Assembly: GCF_964275005.1 (NCBI RefSeq)
Contig: NC_092700.1
Span: 22,119,674 to 22,183,673 of the forward strand
Direction of reading: 5' to 3'
DNA: 64,000 bases
Source of the DNA: Diadema setosum
Taxonomy: Eukaryota; Echinodermata; Echinoidea; Diadematoida; Diadematidae
This document shows, piece after piece, positions 3,139 through 58,521 of this stretch. The notes under the pieces were generated by a model that made no database searches, was not told the origin of the DNA, and was given only the letters and a program-made list of their open reading frames with translations. The position numbers and the translations under genes are program-made. Every line of letters starts with the position of its first letter. The first letter of the stretch is position 1.

Positions 3139-3184
<46 letters not shown>

Positions 3185-3425: not shown

Positions 3426-3468
<43 letters not shown>
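3139..3468. mobile_element. 249-bp MITE (3181-3429) inserted in a TA microsatellite
   Basis: The core 3181-3429 begins TGAAGAGTTTGTTYGCAAAA and ends with its complement TTTTGCAAACAAACTCTTCA. The terminal inverted repeats are about 35 bp, with CCGATAAGTCCAT shared by both ends. Both sides are (TA)n tracts (3139-3180 and 3430-3468), consistent with a TA target. The length equals the copy at 38943-39191. It has no coding capacity, so it is a non-autonomous element. The TA target suggests the Tc1/mariner group. Confidence 0.8.
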
Positions 3469-3472
<4 letters not shown>

Positions 3473-3671
3473 ACAAGCTAGCTTGGCCTCGTACGTTGTG
3501 GGTGCTGCATTATCTTTGGTATGTGTGAAGGAGGAATGACTCGCAGACGTTGAAGTAACGTTCACTCTGGCCTTTTATTCTCCCAAGCTCTCGATTGTGT
3601 AACCAGTCTTTTTTCAAGAGCTTGATGAGACATAAACATAAAAGCAAAAAAGCAACCAATATATATATATA

Positions 3672-3911
3672 CGAAGGGTTTGTTTGCAAAAAACGATAAG
3701 TCCATTTTTGAAGATTTTGAAGTACGATCTCTGTCATGAAGTACAAAATAATACCTTTTAAATGATATATTGGTCATTACATAAAATGTCTATTTTTTAA
3801 GTTATGGTCAAAAGAAACAAAAATTTTCTTATTATTCTCTATATTTTTCTTGACCTTTAATCGCAAATATCTCCATTTGGCAAATATGGACTTATCGGTT
3901 TTTGCAAACAA
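3672..3911. mobile_element. MITE copy of the TGAAGAG family
   Basis: This is a near-complete copy: CGAAGGGTTTGTTTGC at the left, the same internal order (GATATATTGGTCA, AAGTTATGGTCAAAAG, CGCAAATATCTCC), and GTTTTTGCAAACAAA at the right. The last bases of the right end are missing, where it abuts an inverted second copy. Confidence 0.75.
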
Positions 3912-4067
3912 AACCGATTAAGTCCATATTTGCCAAATGGAGATATTTGCCATTAAGGTCAAGAAAAATAAAGAGAATAATGAGATTTTTTTGGGCTTCT
4001 TTTGACCATAACTTCAAAAATGTACCCTTATAATTTTTATGTAGTGACCAATATATCACTTAAAGTG

Positions 4068-25126: not shown

Positions 25127-26659
25127 TTCAGTGGATTATTGGCTCATCTACTCGCTAAGAGCATCCAATCCCGGACGAAGCAGTCTGTATGTCTGGTCGA
25201 CATGCAGGACAGTCGCTATGACTGTCGACAATGCATTACTCACCAGAAGTAACCTACAATGTAGTACAGTAGATGCTTTCCAATCTAAAGCTGGAGTTCA
25301 CTCTAGAAACAGTTCAATGTTTTTATCATCCCAATCCTGTGTTTCTACCTTGGGTGACGTCAAACATTGAACACTGCTGCAGATAAGAAGGGTGATTATG
25401 CTTTAAGATACACAAAGCAGGCAAAACACAGCCAAACCAAGCCAAAAAAGTCTTGTAGCTCAGTTACCATGTTCATCGTCCTTGATCTATGAAATGCATT
25501 TTGTTAATGATCAAACCACAACTATTTCAACGAAGCTGTACTTTGACTGGATCAAAATATGCTTATCCAATGAGATTTCCCGAGAGAAGCAGAAGATTCG
25601 TGATTCTGAGGAAAATTAAATGGCATGACTAGGATGGCGATACTTTATCTATCTCTTCTAATAGGTTTCTTCGTGCCACTATTTTTTTCCCTCAAATCTT
25701 CCATTTTATGTCATATTTTGAAGGTGGCATACTTTTTACATATCGAATTCTTGACGTTCTGCATTAAACGTACAAATGAAACTTAGACCTCGGTTGCCAA
25801 TATTTCTGTTGATAACAGCACCGACCAGAGTACCTAAGTTCAAGTGGTAATCTAAACTTCGTACTGTGAAATCAAAAAATATTAATATCAAATCGTTATT
25901 ATAAGGTTCGTCAGTCTTTACGTTTATCACGTCCGTAGGCCTACTGTTAATTTGGCGAATAAATGGGTGTGATAGTACAGTATCATGAATGTCATATGCC
26001 AATCCGAAAAATTGATGTGGTTTTGCATGATTACATGCGACATGTACAGTATGTTTTAAGAGAAGTTTGGAACAATCACAACACTCACACACACACACAC
26101 ACACACACACCCTAACACACACAAACACACAGTCATAATTTTTTTTTCTTTTGTTCTCATTGTGCAGTGATTCTTAGGTCATTAGCGCTTCCTAGGAAGA
26201 ATGTGCAATAGGCTCAGAGCGATCCATTTGACGCGCTTCATGCTTTCATAGCTTCCTCAGCTTGCCAGCATTCTAGAGGAAGACCTGTTTGTCGTGCACA
26301 AAAGTACATTGTTGGTGTCTATCTTAAGTCATTTTATTCGTAATGCATGTGTTGTTATCAGATTACAAACAGCTCCCTGTACCCTGGTAACGGGAGAAAG
26401 GTCAATCTACACAATTTAGGGCTTGAACAAAGACAAGTGACCATTCATGACCTCTGTTTCACCCTATACAATGTGGGTTGGCCGATCACTGCTGCCAATA
26501 CACCTGTCATAAATGATATACAATGAAAAGTTCTTTGACATGTTGCCAGGTTGCGCAGAATCCCGGGGATGTTGACAACACAATAAAGGCATGTAGCTTG
26601 TAATGGCCATGGTGTGAAAACTATGCACAGTGTGGTTATGGTGCTGCCTTAATCTGATA
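25127..26659. promoter_or_regulatory. Shared upstream region of two divergent genes
   Basis: About 1.5 kb separates the start codon of the minus-strand NRF-type gene (25126) and the plus-strand BTB gene (26660), so both promoters should lie here. I see a CA microsatellite at 26089-26110 and no clear TATA boxes, mobile elements or exons. Untranslated first exons could be hidden in it. Confidence 0.4.
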
Positions 26660-27790
26660 ATGGCCACATCGCATGTCGGACTAAACGTTGGTGGCAAAAT
26701 CTTCCGGACGTCGAGAACGACGCTGACTCGAGACCCCGACTGTTTCTTTAGTCTAATGCTGAGCGGGAGGATCCCATCAGCGAAGGACGACGACAGCAAC
26801 TACCTCATCGACCGCGATGGCGACATCTTTCGTCACGTGCTCAACTACCTTCGCTGCGAGCAGCTGCTCCTACCTACGGGATTCAATGAGCTGCACCAAC
26901 TCATGGGCGAGGCGGATTTCTTCCAGCTCAAGGCGCTGAAGGGACACGTAGAGGGGCTGATCGAGGTTGAATCCCCCCATCCGGGAATTGTCGGCCTGAA
27001 TGTTGGCGGCAAGCTCTATCAGACCACAGGGGAGACACTAGCGGGACTGCCGAATTCGATGCTGAGCGACATCGGGAAGGGTAAAGTGGCACCTCTGCGG
27101 GACAAGAGTGGGAATTACTGGATCGACAGGGATGGGGAAATATTCCGACATATCCTGAACTTCCTGCGGAATGGTCGTCTGGTTCTTCCAGACACTTTCA
27201 GGGAGCTACGCATGCTCGCTAGTGAAGCCGACTTTTATGGAATGAGCTTACTCCGGGAACACGTCGAGAGCTTGGTGGCTATCCTTCAGCACGACGAACG
27301 ATCGGCCACTGTCCTTGATCTCTACTACCACCTCGGGGAAGACGCCTACACGGTCTACACGAATGCCGGTGACTTGCACTGCTTCTTTCCATTCCTTCAA
27401 AATCCCGGGCACTCGCGAAGGGTTAAGGCAGTCCGTCAAGATGGCGTCGATACCATGTTCGGGGTGATACAACCGTTTTCATTTTCAATGCAATCACCTG
27501 TCGATCACGATGAGTCCATCGATGGTTCCCGATGGATCTACCTCAACGCCCCTCCTGTTCCCATGTACCCATACCCGAGGGGACCGGGAGACATTCGACG
27601 GTACGTCTGCGACTCCTGCCGCATGGAGGTCGTTGTAGAGAGGAACATGGAGTCCATAGGCTGCACGAAGCTTCGATTCATTAAGGATCCGATGGTTCAG
27701 CGGAGGAAGACCGCTGGCAAGGCGGGTTCCTCCGTGTCAGGTGTCCCGCAAGTCCCTGTTCCTTGGCCTGCGTTTGTATCCGACGAATAG
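26660..27790 (+). CDS. Intronless protein with two tandem BTB/T1 (KCTD-like) domains
   Basis: The 376-aa frame starts at the ATG giving MATSHVGLNVGG, chosen over an in-frame ATG 30 bases upstream because the T1 fold begins at residue 6. Domain 1 (about 6-105) has VGLNVGGKIFRTSRTTLTRD, YLIDRDGDIFRHVLNYLR and EADFFQL. Domain 2 (about 111-207) has VGLNVGGKLYQTTGETLAG, YWIDRDGEIFRHILNFLR and EADFYGM. Both are classical potassium-channel-tetramerisation type BTB domains and clearly arose by duplication. The C-terminal 160 residues include LYYHLGEDAYTVYTNAG and a CDSC pair (Cys 317 and 320), and I do not recognise them as a named domain. Family members oligomerise through T1, and many act as Cullin-3 adaptors; that role is inferred. 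No intron is seen, which suggests a retrocopy origin or intron loss. It is divergent from the NRF-type gene 1.5 kb away. Confidence 0.9.
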   Translation: MATSHVGLNVGGKIFRTSRTTLTRDPDCFFSLMLSGRIPSAKDDDSNYLIDRDGDIFRHVLNYLRCEQLLLPTGFNELHQLMGEADFFQLKALKGHVEGLIEVESPHPGIVGLNVGGKLYQTTGETLAGLPNSMLSDIGKGKVAPLRDKSGNYWIDRDGEIFRHILNFLRNGRLVLPDTFRELRMLASEADFYGMSLLREHVESLVAILQHDERSATVLDLYYHLGEDAYTVYTNAGDLHCFFPFLQNPGHSRRVKAVRQDGVDTMFGVIQPFSFSMQSPVDHDESIDGSRWIYLNAPPVPMYPYPRGPGDIRRYVCDSCRMEVVVERNMESIGCTKLRFIKDPMVQRRKTAGKAGSSVSGVPQVPVPWPAFVSDE

Positions 27791-38553: not shown

Positions 38554-38942
38554 TATATAGTTACTTTCCATGCGAGGCTTGTGAGTGAAACTCTCCTCCC
38601 ACTTGATTTTTTTTTTTTTCCAGGGATTTGCACATCGTCTGGACATTCCGGCTCTGTGCGTGGGGCAGATTTCTCAGGCTTGAGAGATTTAAGTCCAATC
38701 CGATCCTTGAGAGGGGTTAATAAAACTGACGGGGTAGATTAACCGCGCTAAAACCAACTACGACTCTTCTAATCCATCATATCGATAACCTTTAAAAAAA
38801 AGGAAGTCAAGAACAGAACAGTAGTATATACATGTACCCGTTCGCACCTCGTGGAGCAGTGGAGCTGTGGAGCGGTGGAGCTCCACAGCAAATGAATATT
38901 AATGAGCTCATGAATAGTAATGATCATGAATATGTATGAATA

Positions 38943-39191
38943 TGAAGAGTTTGTTTGCAAAAACCGATAAGTCCATATTTGCCAAACGGAGATATTTACG
39001 ATTAAAGGTCAAGAAAAACAAAGGGAATAATAAGAAAATTTTTGCTTCTTTTGACCATAATTTCATAAATGTACCTTTATATGTATTGACCAATATATCA
39101 TTTAAAAGGTATTAATTTGTGCTTTATGACAGAGACCGAAATTGAAAATCTTCAAAAATGGACTTATCGGTTTTTGCAAACAAACCCTTCA
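38943..39191. mobile_element. 249-bp MITE of the TGAAGAG family inside the left inverted repeat
   Basis: It is the same family and length as 3181-3429. Ends are TGAAGAGTTTGTTTGCAAAA and TTTTTGCAAACAAACCCTTCA-type, with a TA duplication at 38941-38942 and 39192-39193. The right arm reads straight through the empty site (complement GTATGAATATGTATTTATG near 58390), so the insertion came after the two arms existed. Confidence 0.92.
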
Positions 39192-40865
39192 TATGTATTT
39201 ATGTAAGTGTACATGCATTATGTATGAGTGTGAGATATAATGGGTGTGGCAATAGCAATAATGAATTGTGGAGCAGTGGAGCTCTATGACCTAGCATATC
39301 ATGTTGGTGAGCTTAATTTATGAATATGTATGATTATGCAATTATGTTAACATTGTATAAACTATGCGTACGCGGTGGAGCTATGGAGTTGTGGAGCGGG
39401 AGTGACTCTCTTGCAACATGGCTAGTGTGGAGTGTATGTTGTGGAGTCTATGATTTTTGCACGTATATAGTTGATGCGAATATAATTATGCAAATGCGTA
39501 TAAAAGTAAGGTGCGAAGAAATGAACATTATCAATAATAAATTGTGGAGCTGTGGAGCTTCAAGATGACCTAACGTATGAATATTAATGAGCTTAACCAT
39601 GAATATGTATGATTATGTATTTAAGTAAATACACATGAATTATGTATAAGCTGTGGAGCTATGGAGCTGTGGAGCTGTGGAGGTGTGGAGAGTGACTCTT
39701 TGCAACTGAAGGTATGCCTGGTGTGGAGTGTAACTTTGTGGTGGAGTCGTATGATTTTACACGATGATATGAAAGGGTAAATTAAATCAGCATCATATGC
39801 AAGATTAAATGTATGACACAGATACGTTTAGCTTGTGAATGGGCGTGACAGTAACGCAAGTGGGCTTAAGTACATTTCATACTATTGTGGAGCTGTGGAG
39901 ACTTACATTTTTTTTTTTCTTGCAACGGATTGTATGGCTTACAGTGTGGAGTGCATATTGTGGAGTCTAGTTTTTTTTGTTTGTTTGTTTGTTTTTTTTT
40001 TGCTATGTTTTTTTTGTGTGTTTGTTTGTTTGTTTGTTTTTTTCTGGCACGATGATACGAAAGGTTGATACAAAGTAAATGCAAATGCATATACCGGTAA
40101 CGTATGAAGGATTAAGCATCATCTATAGTGAATTGTGGAGTAGTGGAGCTCCAAGACGACTAATATATGAATACTGATAAGCTTTATTCATGAATATGTA
40201 AATATATAAATTATGTTTGGGCTAAGGGGCTGTGGAGCTGTGGAGCTATGGAGCTGTGAAGGGGTCTCTTTTTTTCCAATTGATTGTATGGCTGGTGTTG
40301 AGTGTATGTTGTGGAGTCGTATGATTTTGAGCGATGATACGAAAGGTTGATATGAATATAGGTATGCAAATTCTTAGGATAAGGATAAGTCATCACCAAA
40401 AGCGAATTATGGAGCAGCGGAGCTCCAACAAGATGACCTAGCATATGAATATTAATGTATGATTGTAAGATTAAGCACGCTCAGGTGAGACTTGTGGAGC
40501 TGTGGAGAGCGAACCTCTTGATACGATTTCTATGGTTATTGCGAAGTTAGGTTGTAGAGTCGTATGCTTGCACGATAATACATACAGAAAATTTCATATC
40601 ATTACCGGTATTCGTGTAAATGTGTAAACACGACGTAGGATCATAAGTCGTGAAGCAGTGAAGTTCCAAGATGATGCAAAATGTATGAATATTCATGAGT
40701 TGACATCGCATGAACTTGAGGGTTTATGTGGAGTTTATGGTGTGATGGGGCTGTGCGCGTTTATATATGATGCAAGATTTTATATGAATTTGCATGACGT
40801 AATCTCATGGTGTGAATAAATGACATCAAAGGTGAGAATGGATTAGGATAGCAATATTCCTTTTT

Positions 40866-41180
40866 TCGTCGTTTCATCGTTTTATCGTTTCATCATTTCA
40901 TCGTTTCATCTATTATTTCATCGTTTCATCATTTCATCATTTCATCGTTTCATCATTTCATCATTTCATCATTTCATCGTTTCATCATTTCATCGTTTCA
41001 TCATTTCATCGTTTCATCGTTTCATCATTCCATCGTTTCATCATTTCATCGTTTCATCATGTAATCATTTCATCATTTCATCGTTTCATCATTTCATCAT
41101 TTCATCGTTTCATCATTATTCATCATTTCATCGTGTAATCATTAACATTTGTCATTTCATCATTTCGTTAGTTTATCACG
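40866..41180. repeat. 8-bp minisatellite TTTCATCR, left arm
   Basis: About 37 units of TTTCATCG/TTTCATCA with a few irregular units (CTATTATTTCATC, ATGTAATC, ATTATTCATC). The mirror array in the right arm is longer. Confidence 0.9.
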
Positions 41181-43000
41181 TTCATCATTGTATCGTACTA
41201 AATTGTGAAAGAGATTTAAGTCAGTTTTCTACACAATGTTGGAAAAGCAAACATGTTGAAACACAAACTTGTATATAGTGTTTACAAGTGTGAAGTAACA
41301 GATAGTGTTGTGAACAATAATTGCGGAGTCGTATGTTTACCCCATAATACGGAAATGTGATATCATTGAAGGTATATTCATGTTTAAATGTGTACACACG
41401 ATTTTCGCAAGATAACGATCGAGTACCCACTGAGCAGTGGAGTTCCATCATGGTGGATGACGCATGAAAGAGTGCTCATAGATGCGACTGTGACATGTGG
41501 GTTCTTTATCATGGTCACGACATCGTACATTGACCCAATGAGGTTTATATGCATGGTGTGATCAATAACTTATCTATTTCTTAATATAACGAATAGGGGT
41601 TCAAACAACTCGAAGTCTTTCAAATATATTCGTGAAAGAATACGCAGGAAAAAAATTACAAGAAAAAAAAAATAAGTGATTGATGTAATCGACGTTTTGA
41701 TATTTCCCATGTTCATGATACAATTTCTTTCTTTTGTTTCACTCTAATTAAAAGTCGCACCTAGCTTCAATAGCTTACAAAAAAATGTATTTTTTAATAT
41801 CGTGTTATGTATAGTTGAACTTGATGAACAAAAAGATATTTCACAACAACATTTTGACATCGTAGTGTTTTCTCTCATGCATAACAAGCTGGTACTTGTA
41901 TCTTGTACAATTTTCTCTCTCCCTCTCTTGTTGTCTTTCTCTCTCTCTCTCTCTCTCTCAAAAAAAAAAAGAAATCCGCAAACCATATGGTCATTAACAT
42001 GCAATCATGTTTCGAGACGCAAGCATATCAGACGTTACACAATGATATTGAAGACATAAAAATTATTTGTTAATTTTGTTTAAGAATGTGTTGCACAACA
42101 TTTTAACATTTTTTTTTTCCGGTTTCGTTAAAGTTCAGCATGTTGAATAAACAAGAACAAGAAAAAAGTTAGTACAAACTATTTACACATTGAATAGTAG
42201 AAATGTTGAAATGAAGAATATTGATAAATAAGTAACATATTACGATGTCAATATTAATTTTGTCACAAATACAACGTAGAGAACCGTTAATCAAGAAAAT
42301 GAACATTCGCTGACCATATGGCGTATATATTCGCTATATATACAACCGTCGAAGCTATGTATACTGTAGCTAAAGAACCTCCAAGGGAAAAGAAATACGC
42401 AAAACATAGTCATGAAATGGTAACACAAAAATATTAGTCTGGTTTTGCGCAGCATTATCGACTATTAGAAGAGAGACCCTGACCATGAACCGACAAACAG
42501 ATTTCACCTGTTGAGACTCGTCTGCATGAGTCATAACTCTTACGTAAGAATGACCGATTGCAGAATTCCCCAGTCTAATGACGTCATTGTTAATTTAAGT
42601 ATCGCTGGCGGGTGATTAGCAATAGCTTGTGTTATGCGGGCATAATATTCTTTGACAAAGAATGTATAGTGAATTAAGTATGTGCAGTAGACCAAAAGTC
42701 AGAAACAATCGCGTTCAACGGACTTGTTTTGTTTTTTATTGTTTTTCATCTTGTCATTTTCTAGTTTTGTTCTGTTGTTGTTGTTGTTTTCGCTGTTGAG
42801 ACTGTGATTCTGCACGTAATTTAGTGCTGTGGAATAAAACGAAATTTCATCACATCGAATGGAAAGCAAACGACAAAAGCGATTGATATCCTACAGAAAC
42901 ATCCAAAAATTTTAAGGTATACTCGTTCAAGTTTAAATATAAACTCATAACATTTGCCCACTTTCCGTCAAGGACTTTCAGTGAACACAATGTCAGATGA

Positions 43001-43815
43001 AGTATAGTCCATTATGTTCAATCGAAATGAGGTTTAACACAGTCTTCTTTTACAATGGAATCACCTTTTTCGTATTTTTTAAGCTAAATATACCCCCTCT
43101 GTTTCCACGTCTATAGAGCATGATAGAAATTACAATGGACGTACTTACGTAGTTTGAAATATCCCAATGATAATCTGTAACATTGCGTAGAAATAAAAGA
43201 ACAGTAAAAGCAATTCTCATTTCAGAATTATATTCTACATAATTCAAATCAAATTGTTATACATGACCAAATGACTATACACAAAATAGGAAGTGTTCGT
43301 TAACACGATGATACGGACACGAATAGGAGTCACGAAATGAAACAAGTGAATAGATAACTTAAATTGGAGGAGACATCTTTTTAGCAGTCGCCTCCATTTC
43401 CGACTCTTTATTTGTCATGATCTATTCAGTTACATGTTTGTCCATGCATTTCTTCATCTAGTATTATCATTTTCTTCTATCATTATTATTTTCCTGTAGA
43501 AGAGCTCAATAAGAAATAGTTATTATTATCATTATTATTATTATTGTCTCATTGTAAACAAATGACATACATTTAAATCTCATTCTGAGATGTAAAAGTC
43601 ACGTTGTACTTTATTTCGTTTATATGCAATTGTCATAGTGTATACTTTCATCGATCGGAAGTGAAATAAAATAAAATGACTGAATGATAAATGCGTATTT
43701 TTTTTTGTGTAATTAGATTATCAATTGATTGTAAGTAGTTTTCATTTGAATGTTATAATGATGAGTGTCAATATAATCACCGACTCTACAGTCTCTTAGG
43801 CACGAATTAAGACCA
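43001..43815. other. Non-coding stretch between left inverted repeat and polymerase gene
   Basis: AT-rich sequence with short ATT and TTATTATTATTA runs (43480-43545). No coding frame of note. Regulatory sequence for the polymerase gene would be expected here. Confidence 0.4.
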
Positions 43816-45793
43816 TTGTTTGTTCGTTTGTTTCTAGCACGGTGCCCTCAGTCTGACCAACAGTCCGACCTCAGTACGGATATCAAGCTGCCCCCGCACG
43901 TGGACCCGGAGGGATGTGTCGCCAGAATGTACAAGGAACACTGGTACAATATCAAGGACGGGCAATCACAAGGACGAGTACATAGATGGTACAATTTTCA
44001 CCTCCAATCACTCGACAACACCATCTTGAAAGAAAAGGCTCGAAAAGTGTTTGAACTACAGTCCACTGCCTTTAAAATTAACGCTTCGTATGGATTTGTT
44101 TTGTTTAACAATGAAACGGAAGAGTGTAGGTACTATTACGCGAGTAGAAACACAATTTTCAACGAACCATACGTTATCACAAATCACGCTTCGTTTGAAG
44201 GTTTCATTAACACATTCATTCACGAAGATGTTCTTGAATATGCCAGGTCCCTGCGCCCAGATTCCAAATGGGTGATTCAACATATCACGAACGTCACATT
44301 CTACGTATTTTCCCTCATTGATCATCCCATCGGTAGGGGAATGGAGCTCCCACTGTACGTGCTAGATAACAAAGCGATCGTATCATTGGTCAAGAACCGA
44401 ATGACTGGTAAAACGTACGACGACAATTTGTGCCTCTATCGATGTATTGCTCTTCTTCGTGGTTGTAGTTCAAAATGTCTGGAAACAACAACGAAAGAAT
44501 TGTTAAAGAGTTACAAACCAAATGAAGAAATAAACAAATTCCCAGGTGTTAAACTCAGCGAACTGAGTGACATCGAAGAATTCTTTCAAATTAATATAAT
44601 TGTTTATCAGTTAGTGCCTGTAGGTGATGAATCAATAGGTGGAGATTGTGGAAAGGAAATCAACGATGTCTGTACCCCTACTGTTAGTTCGACTGAAACT
44701 GAAAAAGATTTATTCAGCAGTGAACAGACAGTGGCTGCTACACTCATTCGTCGAGGTCTGGATAAGTTTGCCGAGACACTGTACGTTAATCTTCACGACA
44801 GTCACTTCAGTTGTATCATTGACATCGAGAGGTATTGCCGTAACTATCAATGTAGACAATGCAACAAATTGTGGAAATCTCGAAAATCACTTCACCGACA
44901 TGAAAAACTCTGCAGCGCAACAGCCACCAAACACGTTTTTCCTAAGGGGCTTGCAACATTTCACAACTCAGCCACAATATGGGAGGAACTAGAGGCTGAG
45001 GGAATTTTCGTAGAGGGAAGTAGGAGATTTTTCCCATATTTTGCTACATTTGACATAGAGAGCTATCTTGAAAAATCTAATGAAAGTGAATGCAAATCTG
45101 ACGGTAGCCTACAGTATACATCTCGACACATACCTTTGAGTGTTAGCGTGAACTCAAATGTACCAGGTTACAACGAGGCTTATTGCATGGTGTCGGATGG
45201 AAATCCCCAGACATTAATCGACACTATGGTGGCGTACTTAATAGAAGTCAGCCAACGATCTTTCCAACTTCTGGAACCACTTTATCAAGACGTCCTGGAC
45301 AAGATTGACGTCAAAGCTGAGGAGATACGAAGTAGATTCTTGACTGATGGGGAAATATCTCCTGTACCCAAATACTTAACGAGACTGCGACAAAAAGTCT
45401 TAAACTATTTACAAGAGTTGCCAGTTGTCGGATTTAACTCGGGTAAATACGACATTAATGTCATCAAGGAGTTTCTATACCCAACCCTTCTCGAAAAGGA
45501 TCCTATCAACTACCTAGTAAAGAGAAACCACAATCACATGGCTATCAAAACTCAGCACCTACAATTCGTCGACATTTTGAACTTTCTTGCCCCAGGATTC
45601 TCTTTAGATTCATTCATGAAGGCCTATGGATGCAAGGAAACAAAGGGGTATTTTCCGTACGAATGGGTAGACTCTCTCGCTAAGTTGAATGAACCACAAC
45701 TTCCACCCATAGAAGCATTTAATGACACTCTTCATCGCACTGCATTGACCCCTGAACAATACAAGCAATGTCAGCGTGAGTGGAAAGACAACC

Positions 45794-45932
45794 AGGGGGG
45801 CGTTTCATCAACGAGTTCGTCGGAGGTTTTCACCGACAAATCTGCTATCAGCCAATCAGACGCAAGGATTTCAGTAGCTTTTAACAGTTGTCGGTGTAAA
45901 TCACTGACAAAAAGTTTCATGAAACACCCCCC
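45794..45932. mobile_element. MITE of about 139 bp nested in the polymerase gene
   Basis: It starts GGGGGGCGTTTCATCAACGA and ends AAAGTTTCATGAAACACCCCCC, inverted ends of about 17 bp. A second inner pair (TTTTCACCGAC and GTCGGTGTAAA) adds to the fold. Target duplication is not clear. It has no coding capacity of its own. Confidence 0.75.
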
Positions 45933-46318
45933 AGATGTCCACTTTCCGTAACTACCTCGTCTGGTATAATAATCGCGATGTAACCCCATTCATTGAGGCT
46001 GTAGAAAAGATGCGTGCTTTCTACGAGCATAGAGGTATTGATTTATTTAAGGACGGGATTTCTGTTCCGGGACTTACCATGAAATATCTGATGAAATGTA
46101 GTCCCGACGCACATTTCGGTTTGTTCTCAGAGAAGGATAAAGACCTATTCTACACTTTTCGCGAAAATTTAGTCGGGGGTCCATCGATTATTTTTCACCG
46201 CCATCATGAAAAGAACGTGACGAAGATTCGGGGAGTTAAAACGTGTTAGAAAGTGGTTGGCTTTGAAGCGAACGCTCTGTATCTATGGGCAATCATGCAA
46301 GACATGCCTACTAGACAC

Positions 46319-49300
46319 CATGGGCGTAAATCCCGGGGGGGGGGATGGGGGGGATATATCCCCCCCTGAAATGGAGGAGGGGGGGATGGCCTGTACAATC
46401 ATCCCCCCCCCCCTGAATTTTGAGGGGAAAAATGGAGGAAGCAGAAATGTGATTGTATCAATTTTGGCATATTGCATGACGTTTGTACGCCGGCCTTCAG
46501 ACAGGTAACAGAGCTGAACAGTATTCTATCTTGTAGGAAAATGTATAATTTTCTCAAGCGCTCGCTCGCTTCGCTCGCTCGCGAAGAAAGTAACATCGAC
46601 ATACACTGTAAGGTATGGCTCAGGCGTTGACAGCGTCAAATAGTATATAGGTCTACATGTAAACATGCTATGACGCGAGTAACTGGGGACCATCTGCAAA
46701 ATATGTACGAAAACATACAAACAAACAATAACAACAACTTTATCGCCATAATTGAATCCCCTCCATTTCCTGAATCATTCCTGAGAAACGACAGTGACTG
46801 ATGACTCAGTCAGGATACATCTATGGGCATACCAAGGGAAGATCAGGGACGTCGAATCTATATGGGGGGGGGGGGGGGGGCAAAGGGCATTTGCCCCGCC
46901 CCAAAGGAAGTGTTTAGACAGACAAATCATTATCCCCCAAGCAATTCCCGAGATGAGGACAAATCTCGAACTTTCTTAATGGAAAATTGTCCAAATATCG
47001 CCAGAACTATACATGCACCAGATCGTTGTATTGCAATCATGAACATGCAAAAGGTCCGCTATACAGGATAAGGGATAAACTTTGTACACTTTTGACATAG
47101 ACATAGAGTGTGCAGCAGATCTTTCACTTAACAAAAGCAACCTAATATGTATAGAGGCGTCGATGGGGGGGGGGATGGTTCTCAAATAAAAGTGGGACAA
47201 ACAAAAGCGAAAAATATAGCTACAAACGGCAGTTTTTGGAGTGTAGAATGTTAAAATTTTAAAGCTCGCTCGCTCCGCTCGCTCGCATTAACCGCTATGC
47301 CATTCTCCTGATGTTGCTGCCAGTGATTGACAGCAGGTGCACCCGGTGCGCCCCCCTTAATTTCCAAAGCGAAAATATAGCTACAAACGACAGTATTTAG
47401 GACTGGAAAATGTCAAAATTTTCAAACTCACTCTCTTCGCTCGCTAGCATTTAATCAGTATGCCATTCTCCTGATGTTGCTGCCAGTAATTGCCGGCAGT
47501 TGCACTCGGTGTGCCCCCTAAATTTCCAAAGCGAAAAAGTATAGCTACAAACGGCAGTTTTTAGACTGTAAAATGTCAAAATTTTCAAGCTCACTCGCTC
47601 CGCTCGCTCGCATTTAATCGCTATGCCATTCTCCTGATGTTGCTGCCAGTGATTGTGAGCAGGTGCGCCCCCCTTAATTTCCAAAGCGAAAAATACAGCT
47701 ACAAACGGCAGTTTGGGGACTGTAAAATGTCAAATTTTTGAAGCTCGCTCGCTTCGCTCGCTCGCATTTAATTATTATTCCATTCTCCTGATGTTGCTGC
47801 CAGTAATTGCCAGCAGTTTTCGCCCGGTGCGCCCCCTTAATTTCCAAAGCGAAAAATATAGCTACAAACGGCAGTTTTTGGACTGTCAAATGTCAAAATT
47901 TTGAAGCTCGCTCGCTTCGCTCGCTCGCATTTAATCATTACGCCATTCTCCTGATGTTGCTGCCTGTAATTGCCAACAGTTTTTGCCCGGTGCGCCCCCT
48001 TAATTTCCAAAGCGAAAAAATACAGCCACAAAGTACGACAGTTTTTTAGGACTGGAAAATGTCAAAATTTTCAAGCTCACTCTCTTCGCTCGCTAGCATT
48101 TAATCAGTATGCCATTCTCCTGATGTTGCTGCCAGTAATTGCCGTCAGTTGCGCCCGGTGTGCCCCCTTAATTTCCAAAGCGAAAAAATACAGCCACAAA
48201 CGGCAGTCTTTGGACTGTAAAATGTCAAAATTTTCAATCTCGCTCGCTCGCATTGAACCGCTATGCCATTCTCCTGATGTTGCTGCCAGTAATTGCCGGC
48301 AGTTGCACTCGGTGTGCCCCCTAAATTTCCAAAGCGAAAAAAACAACCAAACGGCAGTTTTTAGACTGTAAAATGTCAAAATTTTCAAGCTCGCTCGCTC
48401 CGCTCGCTCGCATTTAATCGCTATGCCATTCACCTGATGTTGCTGCCAGTGATTGTGAGCAGGTGCGCCCCCCTTAATTTCCAAAGCGAAAAATATAGCT
48501 ACAAACGGCAGTTTGGGGACTGTAAAATGTCAAATTTTTGAAGCTCGCTCGCTTCGCTCGCTCGCATTTAATTATTATTCCATTCTCCTGATGTTGCTGC
48601 CAGTAATTGCCAGCAGTTTTCGCCCGGTGCGCCCACTTAATTTCCAAAGCGAAAAATATAGCTACAAACGGCAGTTTTTGGACTGTCAAATGTCAAAATT
48701 TTGAAGCTCGCTCGCTTCGCTCGCTCGCATTTAATCATTATGCCATTCTCCTAATGTTGCTGCCTGTAATTGCCAACAGTTTTTGCCCGGTGCGCCCCCT
48801 TAATTTCCAAAGCGAAAAAATACAGCCACAAAGTACGACAGTTTTTTAGGACTGGAAAATGTCAAAATTTTCAAGCTCACTCTCTTCGCTCGCTAGCATT
48901 TAATCAGTATGCCATTCTCCTGATGTTGCTGCCAGTAATTGCCGTCAGTTGCGCCCGGTGTGCCCCCTTAATTTCCAAAGCGAAAAAATACAGCCACAAA
49001 CGGCAGTCTTTGGACTGTAAAATGTCAAAATTTTCAATCTCGCTCGCTCGCATTGAACCGCTATGCCATTCTCCTGATGTTGCTGCCAGTAATTGCCGGC
49101 AGTTGCACTCGGTGTGCCCCCTAAATTTCCAAAGCGAAAAAAACAACCAAACGGCAGTTTTTAGACTGTAAAATGTCAAAATTTTCAAGCTCGCTCGCTC
49201 CGCTCGCTCGCATTTAATCGCTATGCCATTCTCCTGATGTTGCTGCCAGTGATTGTGAGCAGGTGCGCCCCCCTTAATTTCCAAAGCGAAAAATATAGCT

Positions 49301-51377
49301 ACAAACGGCAGTTTGGGGACTGTAAAATGTCAAATTTTTGAAGCTCGCTCGCTTCGCTCGCTCGCATTTAATTATTATTCCATTCTCCTGATGTTGCTGC
49401 CAGTAATTGCCAGCAGTTTTCGCCGGGTGCGCCCCCTTAATTTCCAAAGCGAAAAATAATATAGCTACAAACGGCAGTTTTTGGACTGTCAAATGTCAAA
49501 ATTTTGAAGCTCGCTCGCTTCGCTCGCTCGCATTTAATCATTACGCCATTCTCCTGATGTTGCTGCCTGTAATTGCCAACAGTTTTTGCCCGGTGCGCCC
49601 CCTTAATTTCCAAAGCGAAAAAATACAGCCACAAACGACAGTTTTTGGGACTGGAAAATGTCAAAATTTTCAAGCTCATTCGCTTCGCTCGCTCGCATTT
49701 AATCATTATGCCATTCTCCTGATGTTGCTGCCAGTAATTGCCAGCAGTTTTCGCCCGGTGCGCCCCCCCCCCCTTAATTTCCAAAGCGAAAAAATACTAG
49801 TACAGCCACAAAGGACATGTGGGACTGTAAAATATCAAAATTTTCAAGCTCACTCGCTTCGCTCGCTCGTATTTAATCGTTATGCCATTCTGATGTTGCT
49901 GCCCGATTGCCGGCAGTTGCGCCCGGTGTGCCCCCATAATTTCCAAAGCGAAAAAATACAGCCACAAACGGCAGTCTTTGGACTGTAAAATGTCAAAATT
50001 TTCAAGCTCGCTCGCTCGCATTTAACCGCTATGCCATTCTCCTGATGTTGCTGCCGGTAATTGCCGGCAGTTGCACTCGGTGTGCCCCCTAAATTTCCAA
50101 AGCGAAAAAAACAACCAAACGGCAGTTTTTAGACTGTAAAATGTCAAAATTTTCAAGCTCACTCGCTCCGCTCGCTCGCATTTAATCGCTATGCCATTTT
50201 CCTGACGTTGCTGCCAGTGATTGTGAGCAGGTGCGCCCCCCTTAATTTCCAAAGCGAAAAATATAGCTACAAACGGCAGTTTGGGGACTGTAAAATGTCA
50301 AATTTTTGAAGCTCGCTCGCTTCGCTCGCTCGCATTTAATTATTATTCCATTCTCCTGATGTTGCTGCCAGTAATTGCCAGCAGTTTTCGCCGGGTGCGC
50401 CCCCTTAATTTCCAAAGCGAAAAATAATATAGCTACAAACGGCAGTTTTTGGACTGTCAAATGTCAAAATTTTGAAGCTCGCTCGCATTTAATCATTATG
50501 CCATTCTCCTGATGTTGCTGCCAGTGATTGACAGCAGCTGCGCCTGGTGTGCCCCCTTTAATTTCCAAAGCGAAGAATATAGCTTCAAACGGCAGTTTTT
50601 GGACTGAAAAATGTCAAAATTTTCAACGCAAAGAGATTTCACCGTAGGAGGGGGAAACCCCCCTACCGTTACCCTCCCCCCTCGCTTGATTCGTTCCCTC
50701 ACATAACCGCTCCTCCTAGATCAAATCCTGTCTACGCCGATGATAGGCCCCATTATTTATTAGGCCTTCACAGTGATGTCGCACAGCAAGAGCTGAAATA
50801 CCACGATTTTGTCATTCAATGATAAATTGTGAATATTTCATTTTCTTATTGTTTTTTTAAAGAAAAGAAAACAAAATTTTCACCACAAGTGAGCACCAGA
50901 TCGCTGAATTACAGGCCTGAAAATGCAAAATCTTCCTTGTGTGGGAGAGGGATACCCCCCCCCCCCCCCCATAAACACACCCTTCCCCCGTTCGGTCGTT
51001 CCGCTCCCTGTCACAGATATTTCCCCCCCCCCCAAAAAAAAAAAAAAAAAAAAAAAAAATGTTTTCATACTTTTAAGGTCTGATTTTCCGCCGAAAGTCG
51101 TCTGACAAGCAAAAAAAAAAAAAAAAAAAAGCAACAAGAACAAAAAGTCTTTATGTTGTTGCTGCCACTTTTCTCCCACTTTATATTTCATGCAAAAGAG
51201 TGGGGCATCCGATCCCTGTAAAGTGTGTGTGGGGGGGGGGAGGGGGGCACAAAGCTTCTCCCCCCCCCCCCCCCCCCCAAAAAAAAAAAAAAAAGGCTGC
51301 GCCGGTCCGGTTATGGGCTTGTAATCGTGATGATGGTGACCATCCCCCCCACTCCTCAGTATGGATTTACGCCGTTG
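46319..51377. mobile_element. 5.06-kb satellite-bearing non-autonomous DNA transposon, hAT-like
   Basis: The ends are CATGGGCGTAAATCC (46319-46333) and GGATTTACGCCGTTG (51363-51377). Reverse-complemented, they agree at 13 of 15 bases. The 8-bp duplication CTAGACAC flanks it exactly (46311-46318 and 51378-51385). An 8-bp duplication with short ends starting CA is typical of hAT elements. Inside, G- and C-homopolymer-rich flanks surround a satellite array (47195-50620). No transposase is visible, so it must have been moved in trans. It lies within the polymerase gene of the Polinton-like element. Confidence 0.85.
47195..50620. repeat. Satellite array, about 22 monomers of 150-170 bp, with higher-order repeats
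   Basis: Each monomer has TTTCCAAAGCGAAAAATA, CAAACGGCAGTTTTTGGACT, TGTCAAAATTTT, then the CpG-rich palindrome GCTCGCTCGCTTCGCTCG, TTTAATCATTATGCCATTC, TCCTGATGTTGCTGCCAG and CCCGGTGCGCCCCCTTAA. TTTCCAAAGC starts at 47361, 47523, 47678, 47841 and 48004, then on to 50561. Groups of five monomers recur at 47678, 48478 and 49278 (exactly 800 bp apart) and again at 50246. Open frames of 60-190 codons over it are repeat artefacts. Confidence 0.93.
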
Positions 51378-52997
51378 CTAGACACTATGTGAGACGAAGA
51401 GCGGAAAACAATTTCAAACCGGAGAGCAGACATCCTATTGCGCAAGAATGGCTCCAGTATGAAAGTTTTAGAAGAGACATTAAAATCCGACACAATGGCA
51501 ATCACTCCGAAAAAAGAATCGGCCCTCTCCAATTCCCCGTAGATGGCTTCTGCGCGGAGACTAATCAGGTCTTTGAATTCAATGGGTGCTATTTCCACGG
51601 GCATTCTTGTCATCTGACCAAAGGGGAAACACTAAACAAAAGACTGGGGAAACCTATGGAAGAATTACGTCAAAAGACTGAGGAGAAAATGAAATACATT
51701 CAACAAATGGGATATCGGTACATTTCCATTTGGGAATGTGAATATCGAGATATGCGCAAGCACGACTCTACGCTCAGTGCGTTTCTCTCAGAACATTTTC
51801 CCCAAACCAAGCTTCGCCATGGAGCGTCACAAGCACAACTTCTCTCCGCTATGCAGGAAGGACACCTCTTTGGGTTTGTTGTATGCGACATACACGTGCC
51901 AGACAAGTTTAAAGACTATTTCTCAGAGATGTGCCCTATCTTTAAGAATACAAACATATCGCGGGAGGATATCGGAGATGTAATGCGGAACTACGGAGAA
52001 AAACATGGCATTATGCAGACACCTCGACGTAGCCTCATTGGAAGTATGTTCGGGAAGAACATTTTGTTGTATACCCCTCTTCTTCGTTGGTACCTTGAAC
52101 ACGGTCTCATTGTTACCAACATCTCACAATTTGTAGAATACAAACCAAATGCTTGCTTTAAAACATTTGGGGAAGCTGTGTCAGACGCACGTCGTGCGGG
52201 GGATAGCGATCCGTGCAAGAGCATCATTGCTGATACAATGAAACTGATCGGAAACTCCTCCTACGGGAAGACAATTACAAACAAGGAAAAACATCGCAAT
52301 GTGAATGTGTGCGATGAAAATAAGGCACAAAAACAAGTCAATAGCACTCTGTTTCGGGATCTCAATCCTATCGGAAAAGACTGCTATGAAGTGGACATGG
52401 CCAAACAAAAAAATCAAAATGGATCTTCCGGTTGAAATTGGACACGCCGTGTACCAAATGGCAAAACTTCGAATGTTGCAGTTTTATTATGATTTCCTCG
52501 TGAAGTATGTTGATCCTTCTGATTTTCAGATGTGTGAAATGGATACGGATTCTGCGTATATCGCCATCTCTTCGAAAGATTTTGAGGATGTGATAAAACC
52601 GAACATGAAAGAACAATACGAAGAAGACAAAGGCAACTGGTTTCCTCGAAAAGACTGTGTGGAAAATGCTATGTATGATAAACGAACTCCGGGTTTGTTC
52701 AAAGTGGAATGGGAGGGTGACGGAATAGTTGCTCTTTGTAGCAAGACGTACTACTGTTTTGGCCCAACAGACAAATTCAGTTGCAAAGGCGTCAGTAAGA
52801 GACAAAATGACATCAACAAAAACACTTACCTAGAGGTTCTCCATTCAAGAGTGTCGGGCGGTGGAACCAATTTAGGATTTCGTGTTGTGAACAATGGTGT
52901 CTCTACATACTCGCAAACAAGAAATGCCTTCACTTATTTCTATCCAAAGCGTAAAATCTTGGATGACAACATCTCCACGACGTATTTAGATATCTGA

Positions 52998-54284
52998 GTA
53001 GAAAATACGCAGTATCATCAGTCATTGCATACAATTATTTTCCATTCATACGTTTTCCTCCCGGTAGTCTAACGAGAGAAAAAAAAAATGATACAGATGC
53101 CTTCATCGTACACTCAGTTATGATATCATTATGAATGTAATACTGCAAAGATTGTTGTAATTTTCATGCAAATTACTGTTTGCATCTCAAAAGATTATGA
53201 TTTTGGCTTTTTTGTATCTACGGTTGAAGCGAGTTACTAGAGAATGTCTGTTTACCTGTATATGTTTATTGCTGGTCTAGTTGTTATTCATTGTACATAT
53301 AAATCTTGCACAGGATCAGATTACATACACCGCGGAATGAGCGTATAGTCATCAACATGTTAAAAATGTTTGAATTTGAAGGGGCATTCGAGACGTTATT
53401 CATAATTTTACATCATGTAGTACATAAATCAACAGCTCCATGTATAACTTCTGGACTTTATTGTGGCCTTTGAGCAGGAGAGAAACCAATAATCTTAAAA
53501 TCTTAAAGAAATTACAATGAACAGTGTTGATATCATAGGAGCCTCACATATTTCAGAAATGTAGCAGTGTAATTCCAGTACCGCTTGATTAACAAGTTCA
53601 CAAGTGTAGAATCTATACATGCCTTCTTCTTTTCTTCTGCTTCCTTGAGCCCCAAGTCATGTATTCTTATGGTGAGGCTGTCATTTCATCGTCTTTGTAC
53701 ATTGTCATTTGTTGTAAATTTTGAAAACAATATTATTCTTCATCCCAGTCACTATAAATTTTGAAACTCTGTACTCAGTATACCTGATTAATAGTTGTTC
53801 AAATGTAAAACTCAGAAAATCTTTCGGAGGTCTCCTTTGATTTAGATTTAGATGCTTGGTACAATGCACGTTATTGTATGAACGTACACATCATGAATAT
53901 GGATTGACAAACATTTAGGTAGTGGTTTGAATTTTGTCAAAAAAAAAAACACACCCAACAACAACAACACATGGGTTTCATTTTATTTGATATGGTGCTG
54001 TGTTTTTACTGAGCTTTGCAATAGAGATATTTATAATTCCGTGTTATCAATTCAGTGTATATCCACGTTAGTTGCATAAACTTATGTACACAGCAGGGCG
54101 TTGCATAATATGCATATAATTTATGTTTGATTTTCTCAACTGTTTAATACGGAGCACGTGTGTAAGAAATTGGCCTTATCTTTTTCTAAGATTTTTTTTT
54201 TTTCAATTTCACTTGGATTCGACTAGATTTCGCAAGTAATATTGTTGGTAGGGTCTAAATCATGTAACAAACTACTCAGCAGCT
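52998..54284. other. Non-coding stretch between polymerase gene and right inverted repeat
   Basis: About 1.3 kb of AT-rich sequence. I find no frame resembling integrase, ATPase, protease or capsid proteins, although other Polintons keep genes on both sides of the polymerase. Confidence 0.45.
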
Positions 54285-57200
54285 TTCTTCATTGTCTATT
54301 GTGTAAACTGAAAGTCCTCGATTGGAAGTGGGCAAATATTGAGTTTATATCTAAATTCAAACGCAGACCTTAGTTGGTGGAGTGTTGCTGTAGAATATCA
54401 ATCGCTTTGTACATTTGTTTTCTATTCGATGTGATGAACTAATACTGAATTTAACAACACTAAATTACGTGCAGAATCGCAGTCTCAACAGCGAAAACAA
54501 CAACAACAACAAGAGAAGAAAACAAGAAAATGACAAGATGAATAACAAAACAAAACAACACAAGTCCGTTGAACGCGATTGTTTCTGACTATTGGTCTAC
54601 TCAACATAGTTAGTTCACTATACATTTTTTTTTTTTTTTGTCAAAGAATATTAGCCCGAATAACGCAAGCAATAGCTAATCACTCGCCAGCGATACTTAA
54701 ATTAATAATAATGACGTCATTCAACTGGAGAATTCCGCATTGGCCTTTCTTACGTAAGAGTTATGACTCATGCAGACGAGTCTCAACAGGTGAAATCTGT
54801 TTATCGGTTCATGGTTAGTGTCTCGATTCTAATATTCGATAATGCTGCCCAAAACCAGACTAATATGTTCGTGTTACCATTTCATGACTACTATGTTTTG
54901 CGTATTTCTTTTCCCTTGGAGGTTCTTTAGCTACAGTTTACACAGTTTCGATGGTTCTTTGTATGTATAACATCGTAATATGTTACTTATTTATCAATAT
55001 TCTTCATTTCCCACATTTCTACTATTCAATATGTAAATAGTTTGTATTAACTTTGTTTGTTTGTTTGTTTATCAAAGCATTGAAGGTGTATATGATACCG
55101 AAAGACTAAATGTGTATTTATTTCTCCTTGCGTAGCTGTGTAGAGTATGCGCGTATGGACGATTATAAGAGTAAAATTCAATCGTGGTCCTCTAAAGGCA
55201 AGAATAATTGTACTCATATTCGTCAACTCTCCGTTTCGCCGTTTCGTCATTTCGCCATTTTGTCATTTCGCCATTTTGTTTAAATCTATGTACTAGTGTG
55301 CGACTTCTGTTGTTGTTCTTGTTCTTGTTTATTCAAAATGCTGAACTTTAACGAAACCGAAAAAAAAAGTTAAAATGTTGTGCAACACATTCTTAAACAA
55401 AATTAACAAATAATTTTTATGTCTTCAATATCATTGTATAACGTCTGATATGCTTGCGTCTCGAAACATGATTGCATGTTAATGACCATATGGTTTGCGG
55501 ATTTCTTTTTTTTTTGAGAGAGAGAGAGAGAGAGAAAGACAACAGGAGAGGGAGAGAGAAAATTGTAAAAAAAATACAAGTACCAGCTTGTTATGCATGA
55601 GAGAAAACACTACGATGTCAAAATGTTGTTGTGAAATATCTTTTTGTTCATCAAGTTCAACTATACATAACACGATATTAAAAAATACATTTTTTTTTTG
55701 TAAGCTATTGAAGCTAGGTGCGACTTTTAATTAGAGTGAAACAAAAGAAAGAAATTGTATCATGAACATGGGAAATATCAAAACGTCGATTACATCAATC
55801 ACTCATTTTTTTTTCTTGTAATTTTTTTCCTGCGTATTCTTTCACGAATATATTTGAAAGACTTCGAGTTGTTTGAACCCCTATTCGTTATATTAAGAAA
55901 TAGATAAGTTATTGATCACACCATGCATATAAACCTCATTGGGTCAATGTACGATGTCGTGACCATGATAAAGAACCCACATGTCACAGTCGCATCTATG
56001 AGCACTCTTTCATGCGTCATCCACCATGATGGAACTCCACTGCTCAGGGGGTACTCGATCGTTATCTTGCGAAAATCGTGTGTACACATTTAAACATGAA
56101 TATACCTTCAATGATATCACATTTCCGTATTATCGGGTAAACATACGACTCCGTAATTATTGTTCAAAACACTATCTGTTACTTCACACTTGTAAACACT
56201 ATATACAAGTTTGTGTTTCAACATGTTTGCTTTTCCAACATTGTGTAGAAAACTGACTTAAATCTCTTTCACAATTTAGTACGATACAATGATGAACGTG
56301 ATAAACTAACGAAATGATGAAATGACAAATGTTAATGATTACACGATGAAATGATGAATAATGATGAAACGATGAAATGATGAAACGATGAAATGATGAA
56401 ATGATGAAATGATTACATGATGAAACGATGAAATGATGAAACGATGGAATGATGAAACGATGAAACGATGAAATGATGAAACGATGAAATGATGAAACGA
56501 TGAAATGATGAAATGATGAAATGATGAAACGATGAAATGATGAAATGATGAAATGATGAAATGATGAAATGATGAAATGATGAAACGATGAAATGATGAA
56601 ATGATGAAATGATGAAATGATGAAACGATGAAATAATAGATGAAACGATGAAATGATGAAACGATAAAACGATGAAACGACGAAAAAAGGAATATTGCTA
56701 TCCTAATCCATTCTCACCTTTGATGTCATTTATTCACACCATGAGATTACGTCATGCAAATTCATATAAAATCTTGCATCATATATAAACGCGCACAACC
56801 CCATCACACCATAAACTCCACATAAGCCCTCAAGTTCATGCGATGTCAACTCATGAATGTTCATACATTTTGCATCATCTTGGAACTTCACTGCTTCACG
56901 ACTTATGATCCTACGTCGTGTTTACACATTTACACGAATACCGGTAATGATATGAAATTTTCTGTATGTATTATCGTGCAAGCATACGACTCTACAACCT
57001 AACTTCGCAATAACCATAGAAATCGTATCAAGAGGCTCGCTCTCCACAGCTCCACAAGTCTCACCTGAGCGTGCTTAATCTTACAATCATACATTATTGA
57101 TAAGCAATTGCATACATTAATATCCATATGCTAGGTCATCTTGTTGGAGCTCCGCTGCTCCATAATTCGCTTTTGGTGATGACTTATCCTTATCCTAAGA

Positions 57201-57579
57201 ATTTGCATACCTATATTCATATCAACCTTTCGTATCATCGCTCAAAAATCATACGACTCCACAACATACACTCAACACCAGCCATACAATCAATTGGAAA
57301 AAAAGAGACCCCTTCACAGCTCCATAGCTCCAGAGCTCCACAGCTCCACAGCCCCTTAGCCCAAACATAATTTATATATTTACATATTCATGAATAAAGC
57401 TTATCAGTATTTATATATTAGTCGTCTTGGAGCTCCACTACTCCACAATTCACTATAGATGATGCCTAATCCTTCATACGTTACCGGTATATGCATTTGC
57501 ATTTACTTTGTATCAACCTTTCGTATCATCGTGCCAGATAAAAAAAAACCAAACAAACAAACACACAAAAAAAAAACAT

Positions 57580-57613
<34 letters not shown>

Positions 57614-58515
57614 AGACTGCACAATATGCACTCCACACTGTAAGCCATACAATCCGTTGCAAAAAAAAAAAAAAAAATGTAAGTCTCCACATCTCCACAG
57701 TAGTATGAAATGTACTTAAGCCCACTTGCGTTACTGTCACGCCCATTCACAAGCTAAACGTATCTGTGTCATACATTTAATCTTTGCATATGATGCTGAT
57801 TTAATTTACCCTTTCATATCATCGTGTAAAATCATACGACTCCACAACAAAGTTACACTCCACACCAGGCATACCATCAGTTGCAAAGAGTCACTCTCCA
57901 CACATCCACAGCTCCACATCTCTATAGCTCCACAGCTTATACATAATTCATGTGTATTTACATAAATACATAATCATACATATTCATGGTTAAGCTCATT
58001 AATATTCATACGTTAGGTCATCTTGAAGCTCCACAGCTCCACAATTTATTATTGATAATGTTCATTTCTTCGCACCTTACTGTCATACGCATTTGCATAA
58101 TTATATTCGCATCAACTGTATACATGCAAAAATCATAGACTCCACAACATACACTCCACACTAGCCATGTTGCAAGAGAGTCACTCCCGCTCCACAACTC
58201 CATAGCTCCACCGCGTACGCATAGTTTATACAATGTTAACATAATTGCATAATCATACATATTCATAAATTAAGCTCACCAATATGATATGCTAGGTCAT
58301 AGAGCTCCACTGCTCCACAATTCATTATTGCTATTGCCACACCCATTATATCTCACACTCATACATAATGCATGTACACTTACATAAATACATATTCATA
58401 CATATTCATGATCATTACTATTCATGAGCTCATTAATATTCATTTGCTGTGGAGCTCCACCGCTCCACAGCTCCACTGCTCCACGAGGTGCGAACGGGTA
58501 CATGTATATACTACT
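54285..58515. repeat. Right terminal inverted repeat of the Polinton-like element
   Basis: It is the complement of 38820-43000. Compared with the left arm it lacks the 249-bp MITE, has about 250 bp extra near 55066-55312, lacks about 90 bp near 54965, and has a longer TTTCATC-type array. The part from about 55320 to 58515 is nearly identical to the left arm; the innermost part (54285-54900) is clearly more diverged. Confidence 0.9.
56300..56690. repeat. 8-bp minisatellite GATGAAAY, right arm
   Basis: About 47 units, the complement of the left-arm TTTCATCR array but roughly ten units longer. Confidence 0.9.
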
Positions 58516-58521
58516 CAGAAC

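Follow-up and report, generated by a model that had tools for sequence, protein, structure and literature searches.

A 64,000-nucleotide stretch of the genome of the echinoid Diadema setosum (contig NC_092700.1 of assembly GCF_964275005.1, forward-strand positions 22,119,674 to 22,183,673; hereafter the window) harbors an element, at 38820-58515, in which a family B DNA polymerase gene lies between two long inverted arms. We think it likely that this is a decayed member of a group of elements, ~15 kb long, which descend from group I Polintons (Mavericks), no longer have capsid, packaging and integrase genes, copy themselves and borrow an integrase. Polintons are regarded as one of the roots from which many DNA viruses and plasmids of eukaryotes arose. 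The window copy is dead: a stop and a frame break disrupt it, as do nested inserts. Elsewhere in the genome lie five longer copies, all with inverted arms of ~4 kb that enclose a C2H2 zinc-finger gene and, just downstream of it, a gene for a family B polymerase that has a Vsr-like insert.

A preliminary description, made from the window's letters, had noted AG...CT tips, a 6-bp duplication CAGAAC, arms of about 4.2 kb and one family B polymerase gene, all of which we read there as well. Its suggestion of a distinct long-armed lineage, here without capsid and integrase genes, is supported because there are unlinked same-arm copies with exact duplications, low ratios of nonsynonymous to synonymous substitution (dN/dS) and arms around diverged polymerases. 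"Polymerase-only", in turn, does not hold for the family: a zinc-finger gene, lost from the window copy, is present in all five copies read. Mobilization of a reduced derivative by fuller relatives, its other suggestion, is plausible because integrase-bearing loci are present in the genome.

Five same-arm copies share one gene content

A search of the 912.7-Mb assembly (102 contigs, labelled C1, C2 and so on), with the outermost 901 bp of the window element's right arm as query, gave paired inverted matches. Same-arm relatives carrying the full Polinton gene set, as considered in the preliminary description, were not seen among the copies read. Five of the longer copies, two of them referred to below as C4a and C4b, lie at:

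C22:19978091-19993298, duplication GACCAA
C4:18915889-18930879 (C4a), duplication CACGCG
C13:14894031-14909353, duplication CGCGTG
C4:38890622-38905624 (C4b), duplication GCTGTC
C1:24642405-24657388, duplication CAAGAG

All five have the tips AGTAGT...ACTACT and exact 6-bp duplications, every one of them different. They measure 14,984-15,323 bp, with arms that align over ~3.8-4.0 kb (the left arm of the C13 copy is longer owing to a terminal duplication). Their polymerase frames are open (1328, 1328, 1338, 1338 and 1170 amino acids, aa), and upstream on the same strand lies, in 5/5 copies, a finger open reading frame (ORF) of 249-257 aa (zf-C2H2 in Pfam, E 1e-19 to 5e-22), with six C2H2 fingers in the two copies parsed. 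Polymerase pieces of the C13, C4b and C1 copies are 99.7-100% identical and therefore speak for recent movement. Between the two subfamilies, dN/dS (Nei-Gojobori) is 0.06-0.12 for the polymerase pieces of intact copies, 0.03-0.23 once the window copy is included, and 0.22 for the finger gene (C4a versus three copies).

Counting the window copy and a lineage of 76% polymerase identity described below, an exact 6-bp duplication flanks 10 of the 11 elements of which both tips were read; in the remaining one, the outer copy on C12, it matches at 5/6 positions. This outer copy (C12:147379-178516) has, nested within it, a 13.4-kb element of a 72% lineage (151454-164902), whose left tip lies inside the outer copy's polymerase gene. 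Arms without any link to the polymerase had been named as a difficulty in the preliminary description; arms without a polymerase match do occur, in three two-armed copies with exact duplications (C8, 4.1 kb; C16, 3.0 kb; C11, 3.3 kb), but these are short derivatives, to be set against 13 tip-paired elements that do have a polymerase match.

Which Polinton genes are missing? The window has 124 ORFs of at least 48 aa outside a tandem array, and 101 of these were scanned together by profile, the others being polymerase piece 1 (scanned separately) and mostly right-arm frames. Among the 101, no integrase (rve), ATPase, protease or capsid profile matched; weak matches (best Pfam Rad54_N, 8.9e-4) were taken as chance. 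In C4b, 52 ORFs of at least 65 aa gave, at Pfam E<=0.01, only matches to polymerase and to zinc fingers, besides a marginal one to Peptidase_M7 (0.0047), hence none for integrase, ATPase, protease or capsid, with capsid profiles run without a positive control and ~2 kb of interior unassigned per 15-kb copy. For the other four copies, ORFs of at least 110 aa were listed, and profile scans covered the halves of the C4a polymerase as well as the finger ORFs. The Pfam rve model does detect the resident Polinton-type integrase (E 4e-18). The scanned window and C4b ORFs likewise gave no match to transposase, RNA polymerase, helicase or capping-enzyme profiles. IMG/VR scans and phage records returned no relative, and seven IMG/VR pattern loci, considered as relatives, were rejected as unrelated.

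The window element and its decay

The element extends from AGTAGT (38820) to ACTACT (58515), starting with AGTAGTATATACATG and finishing with its inverse. Its 19.7 kb are inflated by nested inserts, the five read relatives being 15.0-15.3 kb long. Ends and arms comprise:

38814-38819, no strand: target duplication CAGAAC, left copy, read in the window
38820-43002, plus strand: left arm, a terminal inverted repeat of 4183 bp, of which 245 bp are a nested insert
38820-40864, plus strand: outer left arm, built of degenerate units of ~280 bp that contain GTGGAG repeats
38945-39190, no strand: the 245-bp nested insert in the left arm, of a family that recurs in the window and at many genome places
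40864-41189, plus strand: array of the 8-bp unit TTTCATCA, left arm
54287-58515, minus strand: right arm (terminal inverted repeat), 4229 bp
56288-56685, minus strand: 8-bp array, right arm
56715-58515, minus strand: outer right arm, same repeats, 28 GTGGAG per 1.8 kb versus a shuffle mean of 0.66
58516-58521, no strand: target duplication CAGAAC, right copy, read in the window

The arms match far above chance (BLAST E 0.0), at 95-99% identity over the outer ~3.3 kb and ~84% over the inner ~0.7 kb (42336-43002). Across the whole left arm, GTGGAG occurs 31 times on the plus strand and once on the minus strand. A ~250-bp repeat with inverted ends is seen at 38945-39190 (in the left arm), 3167-3442 and 3661-3912 of the window; a genome search with a query containing the 245-bp nested insert gave 138 matches, which swamped the first arm query.

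Between the arms, the polymerase gene is split into four pieces (the last at ~52399-52994). The names given here to its motifs (Exo I-III, A, B, C) are those that we take to apply.

43340-43341, no strand: deletion point, the window copy being without ~1.18 kb present in C4a (L048 4970-6148)
43777-45795, plus strand: polymerase piece 1, N-terminal region
44419-44445 and 44788-44808, plus strand: OTU-like Cys/His motifs in piece 1, seen by eye
44851-44913, plus strand: single C2H2 finger within piece 1
45040-45063 and 45424-45453, plus strand: Exo I and Exo II, piece 1
45796-45930, no strand: ~135-bp insert nested in the polymerase gene; the five relatives do not have it
45931-46322, plus strand: polymerase piece 2, with Exo III (45953-45979) and motif A region (46265-46288)
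46323-51377, no strand: ~5.05-kb nested insert with tandem array, between pieces 2 and 3
51378-52390, plus strand: polymerase piece 3, with Vsr-like endonuclease insert (match 51563-51787) and motif B (52244-52270)
52399-52994, plus strand: polymerase piece 4, in a different frame, with motif C (52539-52559) and the C-terminus

Piece 2 contains an in-frame TAG at 46247, and the frame breaks near 52.39 kb. The ~135-bp interruption was also considered as an intron, which we rejected, as its inverted ends and its absence from the relatives favor an insert. The ~5.05-kb insert has the ends GGCGTAAATCC...GGATTTACGCC and a near-duplicate flank of ~12 bp, and its tandem array (47204-50626) has a period of 154 bp and ~21 copies. 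In C4a, the ~1.18 kb missing from the window copy hold the zinc-finger gene.

On piece 1, Pfam DNA_pol_B_2 scores just under its cut-off (24.2 versus 25.8 bits, E 1.9e-5); on an intact relative's polymerase it reaches E 9.9e-17. The Vsr-like insert of piece 3 matches Vsr structures (PDB 1odg, 1vsr and 1cw0; E from 2.6e-5, for 1odg, to 3.6e-5), a PHROG endonuclease (E 1e-6) and, under its cut-off, NCBIfam vsr (0.0075). A possible OTU part was noted by eye only, from OTU-like Cys and His motifs, with no match to an OTU profile; structure predictions reached a pLDDT of 35, with no usable model.

Inverted arms surround diverged polymerases

A search with the polymerase piece yielded 67 genome rows, merged by hand into 50 loci, 31 of this clade and 19 distant. 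The 76% lineage (C1:5423290-5438819; 15.5 kb) has the duplication AGAAAG, an ORF with four fingers, and arms of 99.5% identity across 3,450 bp. Further out, a 1-kb arm probe from the 52% lineage on C17 recurs inverted beyond the polymerase at three loci, and one from the 56% lineage on C3 has an inverted partner across the polymerase at seven (47-56% polymerase identity). The exact tip pattern, chosen after three lineages had been seen, occurs 31 times genome-wide; 28 of these matches pair in inverted orientation into 15 elements (two partners having one mismatch), 3 are unpaired, and 13/15 tip-paired elements contain a polymerase match. With up to one mismatch allowed, the 72 matches fall below the 91 of a reversed control, and therefore only exact matches plus pairing were used. 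Three tip-paired polymerase elements sit within 65 kb at C18:764965-830075. The one-mismatch tip AGTAGTAGCACGATGTACCGG has nine unpaired occurrences in the genome and perhaps belongs to another repeat family.

Finger matches by or in the polymerase frame (within 8 kb) are found at 22/31 clade loci versus 0/19 distant ones, the script having given 23, of which one belongs to a nested neighbor. The finger list was picked by eye from 116 matches (150 of 438 candidates scored), and the other rows were checked by eye against the 19 distant loci. Among the matches listed, some 51-52% lineages have the finger match inside the open polymerase frame (1449 aa on C17, 1435 aa on C10). There it lies ~2.3-2.7 kb before the Vsr part, the polymerase's built-in single finger lying ~1.3 kb before it, and this arrangement of the frames suggests a fusion of finger protein and polymerase in some of these lineages. 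At C10:37069399-37073317, an arm-probe match and a finger match (316-aa frame) are ~2.7 kb apart, with no polymerase match there.

Integrase-bearing Polinton-type loci reside in the same genome

On C11, an rve match lies 9 kb from a distant-class polymerase (150 of 1,451 candidates scored). One example of an integrase-bearing locus is C11:22.908-22.918 Mb. With a 199-aa piece of this integrase as query, 11 loci including itself were found at E<=1.3e-61 (among 150 of 1,141 candidates scored), and 10 of these 11 listed loci have a distant-class polymerase at a distance of 7.7-9.8 kb, the two being oriented convergently. Among the integrase matches listed, a Polinton-type integrase is present within 20 kb of 1/31 clade polymerase loci versus 11/19 distant ones; the single clade-linked integrase is nearer to a distant-class locus. 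The distant class matches the polymerase query over 28-39% identical stretches only, mostly in the Vsr part, and because only 601 bases of one integrase were read there, "Polinton" means for these loci the integrase-polymerase pair only. Judged by these comparisons, the integrase-bearing Polintons are a class distinct from the long-armed clade. Integrase fragments also occur in inverted pairs 8-9 kb apart, as if inside inverted arms, at C13:2856503-2865616 and C24:30802338-30810564.

Concerted evolution and GTGGAG repeats in the outer arms

Evolution of the outer arms is concerted and anchored at the ends: in every one of the five copies the left and right outer arms are 0-0.6% apart, in the window copy 1.7-1.9%, compared with 5.4-8.8% between subfamilies, and identity is near 100% from the tip over 1.6-3.6 kb and lower further inward. 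Such end-anchored homogenization fits template exchange between the ends during protein-primed copying, gene conversion within the genome being an alternative cause.

Per outer 1.8 kb, GTGGAG occurs 23-29 times in the three family arms tested and 27 times in the 76% lineage (shuffle means 0.6-0.8), nearly always on one strand (one on the other), and it is the first or second most enriched 6-mer. The contacts of fingers 1-2 and 3-4 are Asn/Arg and Arg-Asp-Ser-Arg, those of fingers 1-2 being kept in the 76% lineage. By what we take to be the recognition code, they would suit GTGGAN, and the fingers might bind the GTGGAG repeats of the outer arms. A GAGGA excess in the C12 lineage was set aside as weak (5 versus 1.2 expected; 1/300 shuffles as high; one of many motif and strand tests).

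Elsewhere in the window lie a reverse-transcriptase fragment (1213-2004, minus strand; RVT_1, 2.4e-23) and a single-frame BTB_2/KCTD-type gene (26618-27787, plus strand; 1.2e-39).

Discussion

How could such an element spread? As its family suggests, the protein-primed polymerase would copy its own element as linear DNA from the tips. The finger protein would bind the outer-arm GTGGAG repeats and mark or open the ends, and template exchange between the two ends while copying may be what keeps the outer arms, observed to evolve in concert, identical. An RVE integrase from the resident integrase-bearing Polintons would then act in trans and insert the copy with a 6-bp duplication; both the duplication and the integrase loci are observed, and their use is what we presume. 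Taken further, the elements may form a class of their own among the mobile DNA of animals: linear, self-copying and without virus and integrase genes, they would have recruited a finger protein that reads their own end repeats, would live as satellites of integrase-bearing Polintons and, in some lineages, would have finger and polymerase in one frame. We hold this wider proposal tentatively, with doubt slightly prevailing.

Several points weigh against reading the elements as self-copying borrowers of an integrase. Transposition, replication and binding are all inferred from sequence. The merging of polymerase rows into loci was done by hand, and 9/31 clade loci, including the window copy, are without a finger match of their own. 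Arm probes also match places without polymerase, for example inverted pairs at C2 19.57-19.59 Mb (C17 probe) and C12 2.21-2.22 Mb (C3 probe); the 47-56% lineages are known from arm probes and polymerase matches, and may hold additional genes inside. A single query underlies the integrase comparison, for which 150 of 1,141 candidates were scored, and decayed clade members may account for two of the 19 distant loci (C10:23055708 and C17:24098967). At the resident Polinton loci, no exact match to these tips was found. Genome-wide, Pfam A32 ATPase and double jelly-roll (DJR) capsid profiles gave nothing, even at the loci called Polintons, and are weak negatives. As to the fingers, their match to GTGGAG was noticed after the fact, by the recognition code assumed here, and is suggestive only; the 72% C12 lineage has fingers, with Asn for Ser in finger 2, and an arm without GTGGAG.

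Alternatively, integration might proceed without any Polinton integrase, for instance by means of a host pathway or of the polymerase's Vsr-like nuclease domain. We regard this as unlikely, even though the nuclease-like domain is present (Vsr structures, E 2.6e-5 to 3.6e-5) and neither the window nor C4b gives an integrase profile match. A match to this Vsr part is seen in the distant, integrase-bearing class too, so the domain is not special to integrase-less elements; in addition, AGT tips and 6-bp duplications are as in the integrase-bearing vertebrate Mavericks (PMC8097293). Slightly less probable again is that we are dealing with ordinary decayed or internally deleted Polintons, a reading under which the other genes of the window copy disappeared once it had inserted, its long arms being incidental. 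The one gene content, open frames, exact duplications and low dN/dS of the five copies argue otherwise, as do the inverted arms around the polymerase in diverged lineages, against which stand the decay of the window copy with its one lost gene, the short two-armed copies and the erosion of 96% of vertebrate Maverick loci (PMC8097293). It is very improbable that a foldback-type element, with its long and repetitive arms, acquired the polymerase of a Polinton together with fingers, since—despite arms that are long and internally repetitive, like those of Galileo/Foldback (PMC3573991)—tips and duplication length are Polinton-like, inverted arms accompany the polymerase down to the ~47-56% identity lineages, and no transposase profile matched among the ORFs scanned.

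Where does a Polinton-derived element that copies itself and borrows its integrase stand among known systems? Within the accessible portions of the open-licence PMC literature, Repbase and Dfam lying outside this scope, we came across no report of elements that combine long arms with polymerase and fingers and lack an integrase. With group I Polintons/Mavericks they share a family B polymerase with exonuclease and palm motifs and a Vsr-like insert, the latter a mark of group I Mavericks (PMC10328495), as well as AGT-type inverted ends and 6-bp target duplications. The layout of the Polinton polymerase is given as TP-vOTU-EXO-PALM (PMC11071308), and intact vertebrate Mavericks have eight conserved ORFs (seven in one species), (AGT)2//(ACT)2 ends and 6-bp duplications (PMC8097293). 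Unlike these, the elements have no integrase, ATPase, protease or capsid gene that we could find (window, C4b), possess an extra zinc-finger gene, and have arms of ~4 kb, whereas those of intact vertebrate Mavericks span 46-1,447 bp with a mean of 402 (PMC8097293). Since polymerase, ends and duplication agree with the Polinton definition, and integrase and capsid genes do not, we file the elements as a derived variant.

Foldback/Galileo elements resemble them in their long, internally repetitive inverted arms and differ in enzymes, no transposase profile being matched here. Transpovirons are likewise capsid-less (PMC10328495). Cytoplasmic linear plasmids, said to descend from Polintons by losing the morphogenetic module (PMC11071308), would be alike in origin and in that loss. 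Those plasmids occur in yeast and have capping-enzyme, helicase and RNA polymerase genes (PMC10328495), for which our elements gave no profile match (window, C4b); ours, unlike them, are integrated with 6-bp duplications. If true, an animal lineage that kept polymerase copying, added an end-binding protein and apparently borrowed an integrase would be a nuclear counterpart of these linear plasmids, making it testable how a virus sheds capsid and integrase yet spreads, and how inverted ends stay identical. Finally, Polinton-like viruses (PLVs) in which PolB is fused to another replication domain, helicases (PMC12721341), are alike in having the polymerase joined to another domain: there the partner is a helicase, here it would be a C2H2 finger protein, separate in near lineages and within the polymerase frame in some 51-52% lineages.

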